DNA from: an uncultured Chlorobiales bacterium
Lineage (GTDB): Bacteria; Bacteroidota; Chlorobiia; Chlorobiales; Chlorobiaceae
Direction of reading: 5' to 3'
Assembly (NCBI GenBank): GCA_903929135.1
Contig: CAIYTH010000048.1
Span: 1 to 64,000 of the forward strand
DNA length: 64,000 nucleotides
Below the pieces are notes generated by a model. The model did not search any database. It was not told where the DNA came from and saw nothing but the letters and a program-made list of their open reading frames with translations. How positions within the stretch are numbered: the stretch's first letter is position 1; each line of letters begins with the position of its first letter. A program made the translations under genes and the position numbers. Below, piece by piece: positions 26,371 through 37,508 of this stretch.

Positions 26371-27618
26371 ATGGCGACCATCACCATCCGGGAAACCCTC
26401 TTTCAGGCAGCCATCTCCCTTGCTGCCAACAAGCTGAGGTCGGCGCTGACCACACTCGGCGTCGCGGTCGGCGTTTTTTCGATCATCGCGGTCATGACGG
26501 CACTCGACGCGGTTGAACGCTCCGTGGCCACCGGTCTTTCGAGCCTAGGGGCCAACACGTTCCAGATCCAGAAATACCCTGCCACTGTATTCGGCAGCCG
26601 GCACCAGCAGGACCTTTATGCAAACCGAAAGGACATCAACTGGCAACAGGCCCTGCTGTTCCGGAAGTTCATGGGGGCGAAGGCATCCGGCATCGGCTTC
26701 GTGATCACGAAGCAGGCAAGCCAGGCGCGTTTTGCAAACCGATCGACAAACCCGGACGTCATCATGACCGGAGGGGACGAAAACTTTGCCAAGGCAAACG
26801 GATTCGACCTTTCGGATGGGCGGAACATGAACGCAAACGACATCCAGTATGCGAGCAACATCGCGGTGCTCGGCAGCGAAGTGGCCGTATCGCTGTTCGG
26901 ACTGGGGGAAAACCCCCTGAACCGGCAGATCAAGGTAGACGGGAAGGTCTATACGGTCATCGGGATCTTCAGCAAGAAGGGGGCCGCTTTCGGGCAGAGC
27001 CAGGACAACTTCGTACTCATACCGATCACACGTTACCTCGACCAGGTGAACGAAAAAAGCAGTCTCTCGATCACGGTCGAGGCCCGGTCACAGAAAGAGT
27101 ACCCCGCGACCATCGACCAGGCAATCGGGGCCATGCGGCTTGCAAGAGGCCTTACGGTGAGACAGACGAACGATTTCGAGATAAGGACCAACGAATCCCT
27201 GATCGAATCGTTCAGGGAAATCCAGAACACCATCAGCGTCGGAGCCTTCATCATCAGCTTCATGGCCCTCCTGACCGCCGGGGTGGGCATCATGAACATC
27301 ATGCTGGTCAGCGTCACTGAACGAACCCGGGAGATCGGCATAAGGATGTCGATCGGGGCTCCGCGACAGACAATCCTCAGGCAGTTCCTGCTTGAAGCCC
27401 TGCTGCTGTCGATCGGAGGCGGCTTGGTAGGAATCGCCGCGGGGGCCGGAGCAGGAAACCTCGTCGCCCTCAATTTCAACCTGCCGATGATGTTTCCCTG
27501 GGGCTGGATGTTTGCTGCGATCATCGTCTGCTCGGCAATCGGCATCTCTTTCGGCATCTTCCCTGCATGGAAAGCCGCCAACCTCGACCCGGTTGTGGCC
27601 CTGCGCTCTTCGAAATGA
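26371..27618 (+). CDS. MacB-type ABC permease (second of two)
   Basis: 415 residues with the same architecture as the preceding gene: NKLRSALTTLGVAVGVFSII at TM1, a periplasmic core, GVGIMNIMLVSVTERTREIG and IRMSIGAPRQTILRQFLLEA, and the terminus LDPVVALRSSK. It starts 2 bp after the first permease. The two are diverged copies of one fold, so the transporter is likely a heterodimer. It is the last gene of the cassette. Confidence 0.92.
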   Translation: MATITIRETLFQAAISLAANKLRSALTTLGVAVGVFSIIAVMTALDAVERSVATGLSSLGANTFQIQKYPATVFGSRHQQDLYANRKDINWQQALLFRKFMGAKASGIGFVITKQASQARFANRSTNPDVIMTGGDENFAKANGFDLSDGRNMNANDIQYASNIAVLGSEVAVSLFGLGENPLNRQIKVDGKVYTVIGIFSKKGAAFGQSQDNFVLIPITRYLDQVNEKSSLSITVEARSQKEYPATIDQAIGAMRLARGLTVRQTNDFEIRTNESLIESFREIQNTISVGAFIISFMALLTAGVGIMNIMLVSVTERTREIGIRMSIGAPRQTILRQFLLEALLLSIGGGLVGIAAGAGAGNLVALNFNLPMMFPWGWMFAAIIVCSAIGISFGIFPAWKAANLDPVVALRSSK

Positions 27619-27633
27619 GCTTGGGGAACGTCG

Positions 27634-28539
27634 TCAGCCACCGGGAATCAGGCCTCCGGCAAATTCGGCAAAACGGTTCAGGACTCCTGGTTCAGCGGAT
27701 GCCATGGAGATGAGTTCGCGTTTGAGCGCAGGATCAGCCTGCATCCGGCGGTCGGCTTCCATCCAGGCAGGCATCACAGAGGACTCGATCCATTTCCAGC
27801 GATGGCCGGCATCGGCAATGCTCCTCATGCCTGCAATCGTCTCCAGATATCCGTGGAAAGAGGGAAACGATGCGACGCAACGGGGGCCGGACGGAAACAT
27901 TCCGGAAAAATCCAGCTCGCTGCCAAAAGATGCCAGTATGCATCCTCCCGGGCTGAGCCTGTCGAACACCGGCTGCAGGACTTCAGTCTGCTCATGGCGC
28001 AGCAGGGCCAGGTTGCCCTGCCAGACCAGGCGCAAAGCCTCTTCCCCTTCGCTGCCTGCACCACCTGTTTTCACTCCCCGGTCGATCAGCCGGAACCCCT
28101 CGAGAAGCTGGTTCCTGTCCCTCCCCACGGCATTGCCTTCGATCTCGTCGAGACCACCTTCAAGATATGCGGCATGCGCCCAGGCGATATCATGGAAAAT
28201 GCTGTTGTTCCCGGTGCGCATCTCTTCAAGGTCACGGACCATGAACATGCCTGAAGCGATCCGGTGCAGCCAGAGAAGAGGGTTTGCAGCACCAAGGCGT
28301 TCAGGTGCGAGAAGCATCTCCGCCGAAACGACGGCCATCCCGACCTGACGCGATGCAAAAGCTGCCATGCCGGCCCACTTGAACTGCTCGGGATAATCGA
28401 GGTACCAACGGGCGTAACGGGCGGTGATCGCACGGTTTCGTTCCGAAAAGCGCTCTTCTGAGGGCAGGCCCGTCTCGACGACCTGCAGCCATTCTTCCCT
28501 TGTACGCAGCATGTGTGACTTCTGATTGCGGTTGTCCAT
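27634..28539 (-). CDS. Uncharacterised protein, possibly DUF2515-like
   Basis: 301 residues from the ATG at 28539. The frame is long, well composed and convergent with the transporter cassette. It is largely helical with no signal peptide or membrane segment. Recognisable blocks are FSERNRAITARYARWYLDYP, FKWAGMAAFASRQVGMAV, and NNSIFHDIAWAHAAYLEGGL, which recall DUF2515 proteins of unknown function. The DUF assignment is from memory and tentative. No operon partner is evident. Confidence 0.6.
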   Translation of the reverse strand: MDNRNQKSHMLRTREEWLQVVETGLPSEERFSERNRAITARYARWYLDYPEQFKWAGMAAFASRQVGMAVVSAEMLLAPERLGAANPLLWLHRIASGMFMVRDLEEMRTGNNSIFHDIAWAHAAYLEGGLDEIEGNAVGRDRNQLLEGFRLIDRGVKTGGAGSEGEEALRLVWQGNLALLRHEQTEVLQPVFDRLSPGGCILASFGSELDFSGMFPSGPRCVASFPSFHGYLETIAGMRSIADAGHRWKWIESSVMPAWMEADRRMQADPALKRELISMASAEPGVLNRFAEFAGGLIPGG

Positions 28540-28750
28540 CCATCCACCACTCAACGCCGGTGCCGTGCAATTAATTTTCAGGAACGTCAAGTCACCTGAA
28601 GCAGCAGATCCTGATCCATCGATCTTATTCGATGTTTTCTTTCCTGCCCGTTGTTTACTTTTATGGTGTGTGTTGCTTGCAGTATGAGAATCGCATGACC
28701 GTGTGACGCATTGACGCTTCCTCCTTTTTCAAAACACCTAACCTGTGACC

Positions 28751-30367: not shown

Positions 30368-31339
30368 ATGACGAAAAGTGTTTCATGGATACGGGACAGG
30401 CTTTTCCTCCATAAGCAAACTGTAGCAATGCAAAAAACGACAAATGGCCAGAAAAGTAATGGTAACGATCAGAATAACAGCTCTGGCAACCCCTCCTATA
30501 TATTGCTGTTAGAAGAAGACGGGCGTCCCCTTTCTGCTGATAAGTTGCAGGTCGTCACCGCCCACTCGGCAGAAGAGGCCGAAAGGTTCTCTTTGCTCCT
30601 TGGCAATGCATGCCGGTTGTATCTTTCCCCGGAGTACCGTCAGTCTCATCCTGATATTTCTGAACAAACAGAAAACCTGACTTCTGCGTTCCGGGACAGG
30701 AAAGCGATGCTCGACACCGATGCCGCCGTTCCCCTGTTGCGAAAACTGCCGCTCGATCTTGACAGCCTTCTCAACAGTGCGATCGCGGTGAATGACGGGG
30801 ATCCTCAGCCCGCACCCATAGACAGGAGTATCGTGCACAAGCACCGGGATGCGAATGTGTTGATTTCAGAACCGCTTTGCTGTGGGGATCTGCGTTACTA
30901 CAACATGTTTCTGGAAACTGACGAACTGAAGTTCGACCACACCTCCGCACACGTACAGGGCATGCACATGCTCGAAGCGTTGAGACAGGTAGGCATTGCA
31001 ACCGGACATCTTCAGGGACTGCCGGCCGGCGGCCAGATTGCCTTGCTGAACTATGACACGAACTTCTACAGTTTCATCGAGCGAAATTCTCCTATTATCA
31101 TAAGGGCGTACAGCAGTTTTACAGCAGATGAGACAAGTGAAGACAAGGAGATTCTTGTGTTCACCCAGGTTATCCAATGGGGAAAAGTCTGTGCTGATGC
31201 CATGCTGAAAGGATTTGCCTTTATGAGCAGAGAACGATGCGAACAGAAAGAGGCGCAGCTTGCAAGAATAGCCTCCAGGCACAAAACGATGTTCGAATCG
31301 AAGATCAAGAAGTTTCTTGAAATGGAGAACAAAGGGTAA
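30368..31339 (+). CDS. AfsA-type hotdog-domain protein, candidate signal synthase
   Basis: 323 residues. The C-terminal half (about 150-290) matches the AfsA hotdog domain, the family of the Streptomyces gamma-butyrolactone synthases AfsA and ScbA: IVHKHRDANVLISEP at 155-169, then FDHTSAHVQGMHMLEALRQV at 189-208 with Glu203 and Arg206 in the E-A-x-RQ-x-G motif. AfsA joins a beta-ketoacyl-ACP to a glycerol-type acceptor. AfsA has two such repeats; here I see one, behind an N-terminal region (about 43-145) I do not recognise. The stop codon overlaps the next start (TAATG). The ATG at 30368 has no strong ribosome-binding site; 30428 is an alternative. The assigned chemistry is inference from the fold. 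Confidence 0.75.
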   Translation: MTKSVSWIRDRLFLHKQTVAMQKTTNGQKSNGNDQNNSSGNPSYILLLEEDGRPLSADKLQVVTAHSAEEAERFSLLLGNACRLYLSPEYRQSHPDISEQTENLTSAFRDRKAMLDTDAAVPLLRKLPLDLDSLLNSAIAVNDGDPQPAPIDRSIVHKHRDANVLISEPLCCGDLRYYNMFLETDELKFDHTSAHVQGMHMLEALRQVGIATGHLQGLPAGGQIALLNYDTNFYSFIERNSPIIIRAYSSFTADETSEDKEILVFTQVIQWGKVCADAMLKGFAFMSRERCEQKEAQLARIASRHKTMFESKIKKFLEMENKG

Positions 31340-32649
31340 TGCGAGTAGCAGTCATAGGCAGCGGTGTATCAGGAATTGCCTCGGCGTTCTACCTCAGGCA
31401 ACGCAATATTGAAGTCGATCTGTATGAAGCCGAGGAGCGTATCGGCGGCCGCATCGGCAGCGAACCGATGCTCGGCCGCCGCGTCGACTTCGGCGGCAAG
31501 AATATCGGCAAGCATTACCGCCAGTTCCGTGAGTTCGCAGGGGCATGCGGAAATCCGGATTTTGAATATTTCGGCCTTAACACCTCTCAGCTTGTCAAGG
31601 GTCACGTCCTGAAGATCAGCAAGGAAGGCGCGCCGCTCTCCAACACCATCAAGCTTCTCATGCTCTGCGGTTTCGACGGGGTGCGCAAGCTCTATCCCCT
31701 CATCAGGGCCGTTCAGAAAGACCATCTTCAGGGGGTGCTCGGCAGCGACTTTTTCAGAACCGTCTCAGACCGTTACGACCACCTGACGCTTGCCGAATAT
31801 CTGAAGGAGCGCTGCGTCAATCACGTCGTTCGGCCGATCACGATCAGAATGAACGGTGCCGAGCCGGACGAATGCTATCCGGGAAATTTCGGTTCCAACC
31901 TCGCACTCGTGCTCGACAGCTACGAGCAGCTCAAGTACGGAATGCATGGGCTGCTTGATGCATTCCGGAACATGGAGGGCCCCGGATCGCTCAGAATCCT
32001 CGGAAAGCATCAGGTGACTTCGATATCGAACGAACCCGGTGGCACCTTGACAATCACCTGCGAGCACGATGGCGTTTCATCGACGGCACGTTACGACCGT
32101 GTCATTTCTGCCATTCCGGCACGTCAACTGGCAACCCTGCTTGACCATTCCCTGCCTTCCGCAGCAGCACTGCTGCGCCGGATACGCTATTACCCGGTTG
32201 CAGTCGCCATTGTGAAATACCGGGATCGGGTATTCGAGCAGGACCGTCGGGCCATGATGTTCGACAGCACCGGAGCCCTGAGCAACGCCGGCGCTTACGG
32301 CATCAACGACCTTGACCTCGTGCGATATACCTTCAGCGGCAGAGTGTCCCGGTCTGCAATCTCCGCCCACTCCACCCCTGAAGCGGTCATCACTCTTGGA
32401 GAACAGATCGCCGCTCCTTATATTTCAATAAAGAATAATCCCAGGCAGGAGTTCGCCTATCGTTATCTTGCGGAGGGTTTGTGCGCCTACTCCCCCCGGC
32501 ATCACCTGCTCCTTGATCAGCTCGATCGGGAGATAGCGTATTTCAACGGATTTGGCGCGACTGGCGACTATCGTCGTGGAGCCTCAATTGAAGCCTGTTT
32601 CAGGGCGGCGGGTGAGTGCGTCGAAAATGTCATTGGAGATGCCTATTGA
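31339..32649 (+). CDS. FAD-dependent amine oxidase/protoporphyrinogen oxidase-like protein
   Basis: 436 residues. The dinucleotide-binding motif VAVIGSGVSGIASAFYLRQR is at the N-terminus, followed by an acidic strand end (VDLYEAEERIGGRI) and the R-G-G-R region, as in the HemY/amine-oxidase superfamily. The C-terminal FAD segment is degenerate: YFNGFGATGDYRRGASIEAC stands where family members have the GD motif. It starts inside the stop codon of the AfsA-like gene and its own stop overlaps the kinase start. The likely role is tailoring of a small molecule in the same pathway, which is an inference. Its substrate cannot be read from the sequence. Confidence 0.8.
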   Translation: MRVAVIGSGVSGIASAFYLRQRNIEVDLYEAEERIGGRIGSEPMLGRRVDFGGKNIGKHYRQFREFAGACGNPDFEYFGLNTSQLVKGHVLKISKEGAPLSNTIKLLMLCGFDGVRKLYPLIRAVQKDHLQGVLGSDFFRTVSDRYDHLTLAEYLKERCVNHVVRPITIRMNGAEPDECYPGNFGSNLALVLDSYEQLKYGMHGLLDAFRNMEGPGSLRILGKHQVTSISNEPGGTLTITCEHDGVSSTARYDRVISAIPARQLATLLDHSLPSAAALLRRIRYYPVAVAIVKYRDRVFEQDRRAMMFDSTGALSNAGAYGINDLDLVRYTFSGRVSRSAISAHSTPEAVITLGEQIAAPYISIKNNPRQEFAYRYLAEGLCAYSPRHHLLLDQLDREIAYFNGFGATGDYRRGASIEACFRAAGECVENVIGDAY

Positions 32650-34757
32650 AACTCCTGTCACACATACGGGATTTCATCAAGGACGGAACGCTTGTTTCCC
32701 GTTCGAACACGCGCGCCGCGGCATTCCTCGGTGCGCCTGCTCATTTTTTCTTCTATTTCATATTCAAGTACGGCTTTAATCTGAATGAGAGCTTTGCGAT
32801 CAGGATGATCGCAACCTTGCTCTGCCTGAGCATGCTACTCAAGCCGAAATGGCCGGAGAAGCTCCTGCCCTACTTCCCGTTCTACTGGCATTTCATGCTG
32901 ATTTTCGTCCTGCCGTTCATTTTCACGTACAACCTGCTCATCAACAATTTCCACGAGCTCTGGCTCTATTGGGAAATATTCATGGTGTTCGTGCTGATCG
33001 TGTTTTCGCCCCACTGGCTGATGTACCTGCTCGACCTTGTCATCGGCATTGCCGGAGCGATCGTCTACTTTATGCTCAGCTCGCCGCATGCCGTTCTCAC
33101 CCCGACGTTCAACATCCCGCTCTGGAGCCTGGTCGTCGGCTTTTCCATCGTGGTGGGTTACATGTTCAGCTTCAGCAACTGGCAGACCATGAAAGCCGAG
33201 GAACAGCGAAAGTCCGAGGAAAAAACCCTGGCTCTCGAAGCCCTGGCAGGCGGCATTGCTCATGAAATGCGCAATCCGCTTTCCCAGATACGCCACAATC
33301 TCGATGAGATCCTGCAGGAACTTCCCTACCTCCGTAACGAAGAGTTCATCAAAGCGACCGAACCCATCCGGCAACGTGTTGCCCAGGCACACACGGCCGT
33401 CAACCGGGGCCTGCACATCATCGACATGACGCTCGAAAATTTCAAGAGTTTCGATCTTGCCGGTGAGGATTTCAGCTCGCTTTCCGCCGCAGCCGCCACA
33501 CGCAAGGCGATCGACGAATTCGGTTATGCCACCGATGATGAACGCCGGAAAGTGCATCTCCAGGCAAGCGAGGACTTTATCTTCCGGGGTGACGAGAACA
33601 GCTATGTCTTCGTGCTGTACAACCTGCTGCTCAACGCGCTTCATGTGCTCAAATCGACCCCTCTCGGTCAGATATCCGTCAGGCTGCAGCCCGGCGAAAA
33701 CGTCAACAGGGTATTTGTCAAGGACAACGGGCCGGGCATCCCGCCAGAGATCCTCAGCAGGATTTTCGATCCGTTCTTCACCTCAGGGAAAAAAGGCGGA
33801 ACAGGTCTTGGCCTGGCATTCTGCAAACGGGTCATGCGCTCTTACGGCGGCGATATCGTCTGCAACTCGATACCGGGAAAGTCCACGGAATTCGTACTGA
33901 CATTCCCCGTGCTTGAAAAATCGCAGATCGAGGACTACGAGAAAAAACTGTACAGCGAATACCAGAGCGTCTTTGCCGGCAAACGGCTGTTGCTTGCAGG
34001 GAACAACCAGGATGACCTCCAGGTTATCCGCAAGCTTCTTGAACCGCTGCGTGTCGTTACCGAAGAGGCTCTGGACGGAGCCAGTGCCCTGAACATGATC
34101 GAGCTGAAACGATACGACATCCTTCTTGCAGACTACGACCTTCCGGTGCTGGATGCCTCATCGCTCTCCCTCAGGCTTACCGAGCAGGGAAAAGAGCTTC
34201 CGATCGTTGCATATACCTCCAGGAAGCATCTTGTCATCGGCAAGGGGCTTGCTGAAAAATCCGGCATCGATGCCAGGATATTCATGCCCCCGGCGCTCTC
34301 CGAACTGCTGCATGTACTGAAGACCTCCCTTGAAACAACCCGGGAGGCGCTCAAGGAGTCCCTGGCAGGAAAAACGGTGCTCGTCGTCGACGATCTGGAC
34401 ATCAATCGCCGGGTGATCAAATCGATGCTCAAGAAGCTCGATGTGACGATTCTTGAGGCATCGAACGGCCAGGAGGCTCTTGACACCCTGGATGCGAACC
34501 ATTGCGACCTTCTGGTCATGGATATGAAGATGCCGGTGCTCGACGGGTTCGAGGCAACCCGGCGTATCAGGTCGGGAAACAACAGCTACCGGGATATTCC
34601 GATCCTCGGCCTGAGCGGAAACCTTGACAACAAGTCATTCCAGATGGCCAAATTGAGCGGCATGAACGAATGCCTCATCAAACCGGTCAAAATCAAGCTC
34701 TTTCTCCAGAAGGTCTCCTCCATGCTGAAAACCGAACGCCCCGTCCCGGCTGAATAA
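32646..34757 (+). CDS. CqsS-like six-TM hybrid sensor histidine kinase
   Basis: 703 residues from the TTG at 32646, chosen because GGAG lies 7 bp upstream and TTGA overlaps the previous stop; a GTG at 32616 is less likely. Six membrane helices (about 27-42, 50-66, 80-99, 108-122, 126-144, 157-176) precede the phospho-acceptor box GGIAHEMRNPLSQ (His206), an ATPase domain with Asn330, DNGPGIPPE and GTGLGL, a receiver-like domain lacking the acidic pair (about 446-555), and a full receiver (577-692) with Asp582/583, Asp626 and Lys679. The layout and many blocks (LPFIFTYNLLINNF, TEFVLTFP, and an AGNNQ start of the first receiver) strongly recall Vibrio CqsS, the CAI-1 autoinducer receptor. It likely senses a lipid-like signal in the membrane. 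Confidence 0.85.
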   Translation: MKLLSHIRDFIKDGTLVSRSNTRAAAFLGAPAHFFFYFIFKYGFNLNESFAIRMIATLLCLSMLLKPKWPEKLLPYFPFYWHFMLIFVLPFIFTYNLLINNFHELWLYWEIFMVFVLIVFSPHWLMYLLDLVIGIAGAIVYFMLSSPHAVLTPTFNIPLWSLVVGFSIVVGYMFSFSNWQTMKAEEQRKSEEKTLALEALAGGIAHEMRNPLSQIRHNLDEILQELPYLRNEEFIKATEPIRQRVAQAHTAVNRGLHIIDMTLENFKSFDLAGEDFSSLSAAAATRKAIDEFGYATDDERRKVHLQASEDFIFRGDENSYVFVLYNLLLNALHVLKSTPLGQISVRLQPGENVNRVFVKDNGPGIPPEILSRIFDPFFTSGKKGGTGLGLAFCKRVMRSYGGDIVCNSIPGKSTEFVLTFPVLEKSQIEDYEKKLYSEYQSVFAGKRLLLAGNNQDDLQVIRKLLEPLRVVTEEALDGASALNMIELKRYDILLADYDLPVLDASSLSLRLTEQGKELPIVAYTSRKHLVIGKGLAEKSGIDARIFMPPALSELLHVLKTSLETTREALKESLAGKTVLVVDDLDINRRVIKSMLKKLDVTILEASNGQEALDTLDANHCDLLVMDMKMPVLDGFEATRRIRSGNNSYRDIPILGLSGNLDNKSFQMAKLSGMNECLIKPVKIKLFLQKVSSMLKTERPVPAE

Positions 34758-34841: not shown

Positions 34842-37508
34842 ATGTACCGAAACATCTCGGACTACGGACTGATCGGAAACATGCGTTCGGCTGCGCTGGT
34901 TTCCAGAGACGGCTCGATTGACTACTGCTCCCTGCCATGGCTCGACTCCCCGACGATTTTTGCGGCGCTGCTCGACGACGAGCTCGGCGGGTTCTTCGCC
35001 ATCAAACCCGTAGGAGAGTTCACCTCAAGCAGGGAGTACGTTGCGGAGACCAATATCCTATCCTGCACCTTCAGGACCGAGACCGGAAGTGTGCAGCTCA
35101 TCGACTTCATGCCCGTCGGAAACACGATCAAGCCCGAACGTCCGCCCGGAATACATCGCTGCCTCAGGGCCATCGAAGGACGCATGGCGCTCGAGTTGAC
35201 CTTCGCCCCGCGACCGGACTACGGGCGAATGAAGCCGGTGATCATGAAAGAGAAACAGGGTTTCACGGCAATGGCCGGAGATTTCGGACTGTACCTGCTC
35301 TTCACCGGTCCTGAATGCCGGGAAACGGGCATCGGAAGCGACACTCTCCGGCTTGAGTTCGAACTCGACGCCGGAGAGGCTGCCCATGTAGATCTTCTTA
35401 CGGATCCGCCACTGGAGACGCTCGCCTGTCCGTTCGAATCGACCAGAACCTTCTGGGATGAGTGGACACACTTCTGCATCGGCGAACGATGCGTCTGGAT
35501 GGGTGAATTCACCCCGCTCGTCCGACGCTCGCTACTCGCCCTCAAGCTGCTGACCATCCAGTCGACGGGAGCCATCGCCGCCGCGCCCACGACTTCGCTG
35601 CCGGAATCCGTCGGAGGGACACGCAACTGGGATTACCGTTTCACCTGGATTCGCGATGCATCGTTCACCCTCAAGGCGTTCTTCTCGCTCGGCCACGTCA
35701 GCGAAGCCGACAGCTTCATCCACTGGCTGCACACCACCTACCAGAGGCATGGAAGCCGTGGCCTGCAGATCTTGTACTCCATCCACGGCGAACACGCATT
35801 CGAAGAAGTTTCCCTGACGCACCTCAAGGGATACCACGCATCGATACCAGTCAGGATCGGGAACAACGCATTCCGGCAGAACCAGTGGGACATCTACGGC
35901 GAGGTCATGGATGCGGCCCTCAGGCTTTCGGACAACGCGGGCAGGATCGATGATAAGTTGTGGCCCTTTTTCATGGATATCTGCGAAATGGCCTGTGAAA
36001 ACTGGCGAAAACCGGATGACGGCATCTGGGAGGTGCGTAACGGCCCTCACCACTTCGTCTACTCCAAGGTGATGTGCTGGGTAGCACTCGACAGAGGTAT
36101 CTCCATTGCACGGCGCTTCGGATTCAACGCACCGCTCGAACGGTGGTCGAAGGAACGCAACGCCATCAGGGCCGAGATACTCGAACGGGGCTTCAGCCTC
36201 GATCGAAACAGCTTCGTCCAGCGCTTTGGCTCCGATCAGCTCGACGCGAGCCTGCTGCTGCTCCCGCTGGTCAATTTCCTGCCGGTTTCCGACAGCCGGG
36301 TACAAGGCACGATCGATGCCTGCATGGCTGGCCTGGTAAAAAACGGTTTCGTCAGAAGGTACCTTGCCGAAGACGGTCTTGAGGGAGAGGAGGGCGGTTT
36401 CGTGCTGTGCAATTTCTGGCTGATCGAGTGCCTCGCCCTTTCCGGCAGGACCGAGGAAGCTGAGAAAGTGCTCGTACAGACCATGAAAGCCGCAAACGAC
36501 CTCGGCCTGTTTGCAGAGGAGTATGATATGATGCGGGGCGAAATGCTCGGCAATTTTCCCCAGGCCTTCAGCCATATCGGGTATATCAACGCCGTTTCGG
36601 CCCTGCTGGCAGGCAAGGCGCCTGCCGAAACGAAGGATACCGAGCTTTCGCTGATGCAGTGGCTGCAGCGGCTGATACCGCTCCAGATCACGCTCAACAC
36701 CGATCCGGAAGCAACCGGTCAGACGCATGATGCGGCAGGGATCGACACCCTGCTGAAAAAGAGTCTGGGACGCCTGCAGGGTGCGTTTTTCGACACCAGG
36801 CAGGGACGTGTCGACTATGGCGCCATGAAGCGATCGGAAAGCTTCGGGCAGTACCGGAGCCTTGCTGCCGCATTGCGCCGTTTCGAGCTCGGCACCCTTG
36901 CCTCCGATGGGCAGAAGAAAGCTTTCTGGATCAACATCTACAATATCCTGATCATCCACGGCGTCATCGCCCTCGACATCCGCCGTTCGGTACTCGAAAT
37001 CGTCAATTTCTTCGGCAGGATCGGTTATGAGATCGGAGGTGCCTTCTTCTCGCCGGACGACATCGAACACGGCATCCTGCGCAAAAACCGCCCCCACCCC
37101 GCATTCCCCCTGCGTCCTTTCAGTACATCCGATCTGCGGCTCCGCTTCAGCGTGCAGGAGTTCGATCCCCGGATCCATTTCGCACTGGTCTGTGCATCGA
37201 ACTCCTGTCCGCCGATAGAGTTTTATGACCCGGAGAGGATAGACCAGCAGCTCGATCTCGCTGCCAGGAGCTTCATCAACCGACGGGGACTGGAGTTGGA
37301 CATCGAAAAGCAGGAGATCCGTCTGTCGAGGATCTTTCAGTGGTATGCCGACGATTTCGGAAAATCGCAGGAAGAGCTGCTTGGCTTCGTCATGCAGTTC
37401 GCCGGGGATGAGGTGCGCACCGCCATTCAGGGAATTGGCGTCAAAAATCTGCAGATCCTCTATCTGCCCTACAACTGGGATCTGAACCGTTCGCTCGATC
37501 AGGAGTGA
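34842..37508 (+). CDS. Glycoside hydrolase family 15 protein fused to a DUF547 domain
   Basis: 888 residues. Residues 1 to about 215 form the N-terminal beta-domain (SDYGLIGNMRSAALVSRDGS, then IDYCSLPWLDSPTIFAALLD), and about 220-600 form the alpha/alpha barrel of GH15 glucoamylase/trehalase-like enzymes, with GGTRNWDYRFTWIRDASFTL and GEEGGFVLCNFWLIECL carrying the likely catalytic carboxylate. From about 640 to 880 lies a DUF547 domain, with KKAFWINIYNILIIHGVIA and FALVCASNSCPPIEFYD. DUF547 proteins are usually separate secreted proteins. The GH15 part has no signal peptide, so the fusion is probably cytoplasmic and acts on trehalose, glycogen-derived glucans or a related sugar (inference). 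Confidence 0.88.
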   Translation: MYRNISDYGLIGNMRSAALVSRDGSIDYCSLPWLDSPTIFAALLDDELGGFFAIKPVGEFTSSREYVAETNILSCTFRTETGSVQLIDFMPVGNTIKPERPPGIHRCLRAIEGRMALELTFAPRPDYGRMKPVIMKEKQGFTAMAGDFGLYLLFTGPECRETGIGSDTLRLEFELDAGEAAHVDLLTDPPLETLACPFESTRTFWDEWTHFCIGERCVWMGEFTPLVRRSLLALKLLTIQSTGAIAAAPTTSLPESVGGTRNWDYRFTWIRDASFTLKAFFSLGHVSEADSFIHWLHTTYQRHGSRGLQILYSIHGEHAFEEVSLTHLKGYHASIPVRIGNNAFRQNQWDIYGEVMDAALRLSDNAGRIDDKLWPFFMDICEMACENWRKPDDGIWEVRNGPHHFVYSKVMCWVALDRGISIARRFGFNAPLERWSKERNAIRAEILERGFSLDRNSFVQRFGSDQLDASLLLLPLVNFLPVSDSRVQGTIDACMAGLVKNGFVRRYLAEDGLEGEEGGFVLCNFWLIECLALSGRTEEAEKVLVQTMKAANDLGLFAEEYDMMRGEMLGNFPQAFSHIGYINAVSALLAGKAPAETKDTELSLMQWLQRLIPLQITLNTDPEATGQTHDAAGIDTLLKKSLGRLQGAFFDTRQGRVDYGAMKRSESFGQYRSLAAALRRFELGTLASDGQKKAFWINIYNILIIHGVIALDIRRSVLEIVNFFGRIGYEIGGAFFSPDDIEHGILRKNRPHPAFPLRPFSTSDLRLRFSVQEFDPRIHFALVCASNSCPPIEFYDPERIDQQLDLAARSFINRRGLELDIEKQEIRLSRIFQWYADDFGKSQEELLGFVMQFAGDEVRTAIQGIGVKNLQILYLPYNWDLNRSLDQE

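Follow-up and report, generated by a model that had tools for sequence, protein, structure and literature searches.

This analysis concerns three overlapping genes at 30368-34757 of a window of 64,000 nucleotides (the whole stretch analysed, positions 1 to 64,000 of contig CAIYTH010000048.1) from an uncultured Chlorobiales bacterium. They encode an AfsA-domain protein (AFS), a flavin oxidoreductase (FAD) and a hybrid sensor histidine kinase (KIN). AfsA-type enzymes produce butyrolactone signals in Streptomyces, and it is likely that AFS, FAD and KIN form a self-contained cell–cell signalling cassette, in which AFS and FAD would make an acyl-derived autoinducer that KIN would sense. The initial annotation had proposed that the operon makes and senses its own small lipid-like signal; the hotdog domain, the CqsS-group sensor and the gene linkage described below support this, and we infer the rest, namely the chemistry and lipid-like nature of the signal, its structure, secretion and density dependence, the relay and the target genes. 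The genes and the domain of AFS are as follows.

30368-31339, plus strand: AFS, AfsA-domain protein of 323 amino acids, putative autoinducer synthase (PF03756, E 1.7e-32)
30833-31216, plus strand: single AfsA hotdog domain of AFS, residues 156-283 (Pfam, motif alignment, AlphaFold/Foldseek)
31339-32649, plus strand: FAD, flavin oxidoreductase of 436 amino acids, putative tailoring dehydrogenase (PF01593, 8e-24)
32646-34757, plus strand: KIN, hybrid sensor histidine kinase of 703 amino acids, putative receptor (TTG start at 32646)

The genes had been described as joined by a TAATG and a TTGA overlap, and both are present: the AFS/FAD junction is TAATG at 31337-31341, and the TTG start of KIN overlaps the FAD stop as TTGA at 32646-32649. 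A search for AfsA in 98 Chlorobiales genomes was positive in 27 of them, belonging to two of nine genera, with 12 of 21 genomes in the window's genus (g1) and 15 of 65 in a second genus (g2); there are 28 loci because genome G007 has two. FAD directly follows AFS in 28/28 loci, always with an overlap of 1–10 nucleotides, and KIN comes next in 27 of the 28 (the window counted), a start codon for it that overlaps the end of FAD being available in 24 of the 26 loci open to inspection. The sole exception, L034, lies at a contig end, the contig ending 52 bases past the FAD stop, and a kinase piece is found at the edge of another contig in the same genome. The linkage in other Chlorobiales genomes, which the initial annotation had asked about, holds. 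In addition, locus L045 of G007 carries the whole operon twice in tandem, together with a third kinase and a FAD fragment, and one extra kinase is present at locus L041 of genome G012.

AFS scores 112.7 bits against PF03756 AfsA, for which the Pfam cut-off is 24, and a six-frame search of the window's own genome gives an AfsA match of 115.1 bits. The motif on which the hotdog assignment had been based is present as V156-H157-K158 and E203-A-L-R206-Q207, in which H157, K158, E203, R206 and Q207 are invariant in 32/32 aligned sequences (window included), as are FDH at 189-191, H195, Q197 and G198. The AlphaFold model of AFS, built with 32 natural sequences, has a mean predicted local distance difference test score (pLDDT) of 83 and a predicted template modelling score (pTM) of 0.80, with residues 1-39 of low confidence. 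In our reading of its list of elements, the model is predicted to comprise an alpha/beta domain at about residues 44-135, which does not follow the hotdog order of elements, and one hotdog at about residues 170-285. A sequence search of the PDB gives no significant match to AFS (best E 0.2). The best Foldseek PDB matches of the model are FabZ (3d6x, E 1.3e-5) and hotdog-type thioesterases, which agrees with the Pfam result. Judged by motif, the invariant FDH...H195...E203..R206-Q207 stretch appears to overlie the active-site stretch of FabZ. A canonical double-hotdog ScbA was considered and rejected, since AFS reaches 37.4 bits against the ScbA/BarX equivalog NF041195 (cut-off 200), has one AfsA stretch and has an N-terminal fold that is not read as a hotdog.

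FAD matches the Pfam family Amino_oxidase and has a protoporphyrinogen-oxidase/amine-oxidase fold. Searched by sequence against the PDB, it matches protoporphyrinogen oxidase with E 4.4e-9 over residues 1-55, and amine oxidases also match. The AlphaFold model (mean pLDDT 90, pTM 0.90) is closest by Foldseek to the protoporphyrinogen oxidase of Myxococcus xanthus (2ive, E 2.1e-27), with phytoene desaturase and monoamine oxidases also among the matches. These fold neighbours suggest that the enzyme is a dehydrogenase or oxidase. Among the best 25 NCBIfam models, the protoporphyrinogen oxidase models NF008841 and TIGR00562 give 72.1 and 48.6 bits, below their cut-offs of 517 and 97.85.

In a scan of genome contigs from 84,980 species with the AFS alignment, which seeks two short motifs and can therefore miss remote relatives, 32 loci were found: 22 in Chlorobiota, among them the isolate Chlorobium ferrooxidans DSM 13031, nine in Corallococcus/Myxococcaceae and one in a Rickettsiaceae metagenome-assembled genome (MAG). 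Neither FAD nor KIN was matched in the fetched flanks of the nine myxobacterial AfsA loci, and on this ground the system is not assigned to these organisms. The Rickettsiaceae contig, of 767 kb, holds AFS, FAD and KIN in the same order at 35, 38 and 49% identity, the last figure being for the membrane domain; its KIN carries an HPt domain, its AfsA reading frame is broken upstream, and the MAG is the only match among 61 genomes of its family. Hotdog and protoporphyrinogen-oxidase-like folds, such as those of AFS and FAD, are common in lipid and tetrapyrrole metabolism, so that the two enzymes might modify a membrane or chlorosome lipid or a housekeeping metabolite, with KIN watching the lipid state of its own cell and no intercellular signal involved. 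This is quite unlikely, because the patchy presence of the triple (27/98 genomes) is unlike a housekeeping role, a Rickettsiaceae MAG carries it, and at one chromosomal site it alternates with the established autoinducer synthase CqsA, as described below.

The flanks differ between g1 and g2 around the same triple. In the window, a SnoaL-like gene lies upstream and LpxD and Prs lie downstream, and among open reading frames of at least 90 amino acids none besides AFS, FAD and KIN is common to the g1 and g2 neighbourhoods; therefore, no immunity, transport or polyketide synthase gene moves with the triple. This result counts against a reading in which the product is mainly an antimicrobial metabolite that its producer senses through KIN, as in the AfsA killing cluster of Ruegeria pomeroyi, where the cluster is reported to be required for killing and afsA for the transcription of most of its genes (PMC7426152). 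Even with a MacB/FtsX-type permease gene at 26371-27618 in the window, this reading is considered very unlikely. The self-contained signalling cassette remains the preferred explanation, and its sensor is considered next.

32646-33215, plus strand: N-terminal membrane sensor of KIN, about residues 1-190, homologue of the CqsS membrane domain (end estimated by us)
32961-32963, plus strand: codon of W106, the equivalent of W104 in V. cholerae CqsS
32970-32972, plus strand: codon of W109, the equivalent of S107 in V. cholerae CqsS, which is reported to set head-group preference
33237-33911, plus strand: HisKA (phospho-acceptor H206, codon at 33261) and HATPase_c, by Pfam
33981-34340, plus strand: first receiver-like domain, lacking the acidic pair, Asp496 present (limits estimated by us)
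34377-34715, plus strand: second receiver, complete with DD, Asp626 and Lys (Pfam and motif reading)

The membrane profile of KIN aligns with the membrane domain of Vibrio campbellii CqsS at an hhalign E of 1.1e-10 over 169 columns, whereas 15 controls (five membrane-protein segments of the window and ten shuffles of CqsS) gave E 0.045 or worse, which places the kinase in the CqsS group as had been claimed. A hydropathy scan of the sensor gives six peaks, two pairs of them overlapping, and six membrane helices are plausible. The rest of KIN comprises the GGIAHEMRNPL box with His206, HisKA, HATPase and two receiver stretches. Of the layout given initially, the box, the receiver without its acidic pair and the full receiver are all present, but the order is not exactly that of CqsS, because KIN has an extra receiver-like domain; a review lists the domains of Vibrio CqsS as HisKA, HATPase_c and REC (PMC3376566). 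Among the 25 AFS-linked kinases compared, 13 have Asp at the first place of the acidic pair of the first receiver, so the loss in the window is not universal, and DD, the phospho-Asp and Lys of the second receiver are kept in 25/25. The best of the 25 best NCBIfam models for KIN is LuxN (NF041945), with the best stretch at residues 195-563; at 271.8 bits for a cut-off of 1550, the identification of KIN as LuxN was rejected. KIN as a plain CqsS was likewise rejected, as CqsA is missing and the S107 position holds Trp rather than Ser.

This position deserves closer attention. It has been reported that W104 and S107 of V. cholerae CqsS set head-group preference and that F160, F162, F166 and C170 gate the ligand (PMC3376566), and that grafting the membrane domain of V. 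harveyi CqsS makes a cyclase answer CAI-1 (cholerae autoinducer 1; PMC4821796). V. campbellii CqsS has the same letters W, S, F, F and F at a constant shift of 5, and the W104 equivalent, W106 in KIN, is Trp in all receptors of our comparison table. At position 109, the S107 equivalent, Ser is found in 14/14 CqsA-partnered receptors (four of Chlorobiaceae, V. campbellii, Cupriavidus and eight from a Pseudomonadota sample), Trp in 27/27 AFS-partnered receptors, the window and the Rickettsiaceae included, Trp in 7/7 receptors partnered with a class I methyltransferase (c20) and Ala in 2/2 partnered with a KASIII-like gene; these counts are not probabilities, since related sequences are not independent. 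Two kinases of AFS genomes outside the table, one cut by a contig end (G006) and one on another contig (G071), are also Trp. Of 184 columns scored, 109 and 112 alone split the 14 CqsA-partnered receptors from the other 36. Receptors lacking an identified synthase partner, and one second kinase of a tandem pair, were not counted: the extra kinases of G012 and G007 and the second kinase of L096 have Ser, seven g2 kinases have Trp, the L206 kinase has Thr, the four LuxN-like kinases of the window's genome have Ser, Ala, Ala and Thr, and four more Rickettsiaceae kinases have Glu, Trp, Cys and Ala.

The membrane domain of KIN matched 45 of the 98 genomes, and 20 further loci were read, 18 with KIN relatives outside AFS loci and two of the window's own genome. 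In four g1 genomes (L095, L097, L100, L101), the kinase at the window's site, between the SnoaL-like gene and LpxD/Prs, stands beside a divergent CqsA; the identity of CqsA was tested for L100 (NF005526, 590.8 bits, cut-off 428) and assigned by BLAST clustering for the other three. In three further g1 genomes, the kinase in the window's neighbourhood stands beside c20, flanked by the SnoaL-like gene and LpxD in L099, the SnoaL-like gene in L098 and other flanking genes of the window in L096. The 21 g1 genomes divide into 12 with AFS, four with CqsA at the site, three with c20 and two with none of these; G011 has both AFS and CqsA, on different contigs. In g2, c20 follows the kinase in four genomes (L107, L108, L109, L111). 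Altogether c20 occurs in 8/98 genomes, in seven of which it adjoins such a kinase, the eighth copy lying at a contig start. It matches generic methyltransferase models only. For its best relative among 398 Pseudomonadota genomes, at 40%, 13 kb were read and contain no KIN-like kinase. Orthology of c20 to Ralstonia PhcB was not established. In L099 (G017), c20 holds four in-frame stops beside an open kinase frame, and the receptor there seems to have outlived its synthase.

Another possibility raised by the CqsS homology is that KIN senses a CAI-1-like alpha-hydroxyketone made by a CqsA elsewhere in the genome or in neighbouring cells, AFS and FAD only modifying or feeding that pathway. The CqsA-linked sensors do nest within the AFS-linked ones of g1, and 15/15 g2 AFS genomes also have CqsA. 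On the other side, CqsA was not matched at E 1e-60 in 11 of the 12 g1 AFS genomes, among them that of the window, no CqsA lies in the operon itself, and the head-group position is W, not S, in every AFS-partnered receptor counted. Furthermore, in 16 of the 25 g2 genomes with CqsA, the contig that carries CqsA also shows, no more than 3 kb from it, a distant match to the membrane domain of KIN (our count, from coordinates alone), so CqsA there seems to have a receptor of its own. We consider the alpha-hydroxyketone explanation unlikely, and a signal made by AFS and FAD themselves is preferred.

The history of the receptors can be followed in trees of 44 kinases, in which the membrane part and the kinase part disagree. 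In the membrane tree, nine c20-type sensors of both genera group together with support of 100/100 (seven are beside c20; the other two, L110 and L112, show no c20 in the stretch fetched), and a single g1 clade is rejected by the approximately unbiased (AU) test (p-AU 5.2e-97). In the kinase tree, by contrast, the g1 kinases group together (100/100), and the AU test rejects a common clade of the c20-type ones (p-AU 4.1e-28). Because a first tree had already been seen when the groups were defined, these AU values do not come from a blind test. Similarly, mean identity between c20-partnered receptors of g1 and g2 is 59.8% for the membrane domain and 44.9% for the kinase domain, whereas AFS- and c20-partnered receptors within g1 share 43.3% and 62.0%, respectively. 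In sliding windows the shift falls somewhere from about residue 110 to about residue 190. Since the membrane tree follows c20 and the kinase tree follows the genus, it seems that a cassette of synthase plus sensor was exchanged upstream of a resident kinase core. The four CqsA-partnered sensors lie inside the g1 AFS-partnered ones in the membrane trees, which is nesting and no clean swap. Long branches among the Vibrio CqsS, Cupriavidus, Rickettsiaceae, Paraburkholderia and own-genome LuxN-like rows appear in the first tree, and their placement was not used. Co-variation among 25 complete triples was also examined: with the kinase domain controlled for, AFS-hotdog and FAD distances track the membrane domain (partial r 0.51 and 0.58), whereas with the membrane domain controlled for they scarcely track the kinase domain (0.05 and 0.16). 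Position as operon neighbours could add to this.

Several observations weigh against a cassette that makes and senses its own signal. The operon contains no gene for a response regulator, HPt protein or phosphatase. W109 is shared by AFS- and c20-partnered receptors and so does not separate them, although 13 other columns do. AFS-partnered sensors as a single clade are rejected (p-AU 0.001), the second receiver, once the sensor is controlled for, is still correlated with AFS (partial r 0.39) and FAD (0.35), and in g1 alone AFS tracks the kinase domain as well as it tracks the sensor (0.80 and 0.79). Finally, the signal of the CqsA that each of the g2 AFS genomes holds elsewhere could in principle be heard by KIN.

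A possible mechanism is as follows. Like other AfsA-type enzymes, AFS would condense a fatty beta-ketoacyl thioester with a small C3 compound, for instance dihydroxyacetone phosphate. Oxidation or desaturation by FAD would then yield an amphiphile resembling a butenolide, butyrolactone or furan. This product would diffuse out and bind the membrane domain of KIN, shifting its kinase/phosphatase balance, and phosphate would leave through the intact second receiver to an unlinked HPt protein or regulator. A Streptomyces plasmid carries an AfsA-type gene with a flavoprotein gene and then a HAD hydrolase gene behind it, which is the order of the methylenomycin furan genes. AfsA-type enzymes are reported to make the butyrolactone signals of Streptomyces (PMC12114271, PMC7756420), and the butenolide of gladiofungin is reported to require one AfsA domain in a polyketide synthase (PMC7756420). 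On the strength of this butyrolactone and butenolide chemistry and of the order with a flavoprotein after AfsA, a route through AFS and the flavoenzyme to a butenolide or furan is plausible, although the two flavoproteins are from different families and the AFS operon has no linked phosphatase. More broadly, and with a confidence only a little above even, it is proposed that membrane domains of the CqsS type serve as a common socket into which various acyl-derived autoinducers fit, that whole cassettes of synthase and sensor are exchanged upstream of a resident kinase core, that the S107 position in helix 4 acts as a partner code (Ser for CqsA, Trp for AfsA with flavoenzyme or for methyltransferase, Ala for KASIII-like enzymes), and that the AFS and FAD product would be a chemically new autoinducer class for this family.

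The receptor family extends beyond green sulfur bacteria. The membrane profile matches 19 of the 398 Pseudomonadota genomes at E 1e-6, in 25 places, and of 16 loci fetched, eight have a CqsA-like gene beside the kinase or one gene off. A KASIII-like gene lies beside the kinase in the Rickettsiaceae locus L204 and 27 bases upstream of such a kinase on a Paraburkholderia plasmid. The genes of L212 and L214 were not resolved by a simple gene finder, and in the other five loci no synthase could be named confidently. The Rickettsiaceae MAG (G098, 1.6 Mb; L139, L203, L204, L205) has six matches to CqsS-type membrane domains, many for a small genome, one of them beside AfsA with the flavoenzyme and one beside the KASIII-like gene. 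Between two such kinases, L203:9693-10829 encodes a protein of 379 amino acids with no Pfam match at E 0.01; by eye it has a FabZ-like GHF...PILPVGVL stretch and is possibly another hotdog synthase, and a kinship test with AFS gave no link (E 0.078). In the Pseudomonadota genome G482 (L206:2208-6986), a kinase of the family is flanked by a PhyH-type dioxygenase and by a 438-residue protein with no Pfam match over the cut-off, which may be another set of synthase genes. The window's own genome has four LuxN/CqsS-like kinases on contigs 54 and 33 (L113, L114), three in tandem, one of them cut at the edge of the stretch fetched, which are receptors without a known synthase, no CqsA match being found in this genome at E 1e-60. 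Elsewhere in the window, a DUF2515 protein (184 bits; 27634-28590, minus strand) adjoins the MacB/FtsX-type permease gene, and 34842-37508 encodes one protein of 888 amino acids that fuses trehalase-like N-terminal, GH15 and DUF547 domains.

Homologues of CqsA/CqsS in Chlorobium and Prosthecochloris have already been published (PMC5289986, PMC10158934), and according to one study only CAI-1, among the acyl-homoserine lactone (AHL), autoinducer 2 (AI-2), CAI-1 and diffusible signal factor (DSF) systems, is found in green sulfur genomes (PMC10158934). AfsA domains outside Streptomyces have likewise been described (PMC7426152, PMC12114271, PMC7756420). A literature search in which subscription papers were largely out of reach found no paper pairing AfsA with CqsS. 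As the CqsA/CqsS pair was already known in green sulfur bacteria, the novelty seen by the initial annotation is narrower: what is new is the AfsA and flavoenzyme partner, a different and probably chemically distinct synthase for a receptor family known for alpha-hydroxyketones. If this is true, an AfsA-made signal would be added to quorum sensing through membrane kinases, joining the fields of Streptomyces hormones and Vibrio/Legionella autoinducers. Receptors that share an output core while their synthases differ form a natural series in which ligand specificity can be read and tested, and communication in green sulfur bacteria would become testable.

Compared with known systems, the alpha-hydroxyketone quorum-sensing systems CqsA/CqsS of Vibrio and LqsA/LqsS of Legionella and the CqsA/CqsS pairs of Chlorobiaceae resemble the present operon in receptor family, in the adjacent synthase gene and in the hybrid kinase. 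Unlike in these systems, the synthase here is an AfsA-type enzyme with a flavoenzyme rather than a pyridoxal phosphate enzyme, and KIN has Trp at the S107 equivalent and an extra receiver-like domain. The three genes overlap and run in one direction, whereas the CqsA/CqsS pair is divergent in the four Chlorobiaceae and convergent in V. campbellii. LuxN, the Vibrio receptor for autoinducer 1 (AI-1), is likened to KIN through a match confined to the kinase and receiver part. PhcB/PhcS of Ralstonia, a quorum-sensing system based on 3-hydroxy fatty acid methyl esters, likewise has a membrane kinase beside a small-molecule synthase (PMC10653808); c20 and PhcB belong to the same broad enzyme class, and the AFS operon has no methyltransferase. 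With the gamma-butyrolactone systems AfsA/ScbA/BarX and the furan system MmfL/MmfH of Streptomyces, AFS has in common the AfsA hotdog with FDH...E..RQ, its profile matching a ScbA-type protein at E 5.4e-11, but it has one AfsA stretch where the Streptomyces ScbA-type protein (L202:889-1947) has two. The flavoprotein after the AfsA-type gene on the Streptomyces plasmid belongs to the acyl-CoA dehydrogenase family and FAD to a different superfamily, and no phosphatase is linked to the AFS operon. The receptor in this operon is a membrane kinase, whereas a ScbR-type repressor is annotated beside the Streptomyces gene.

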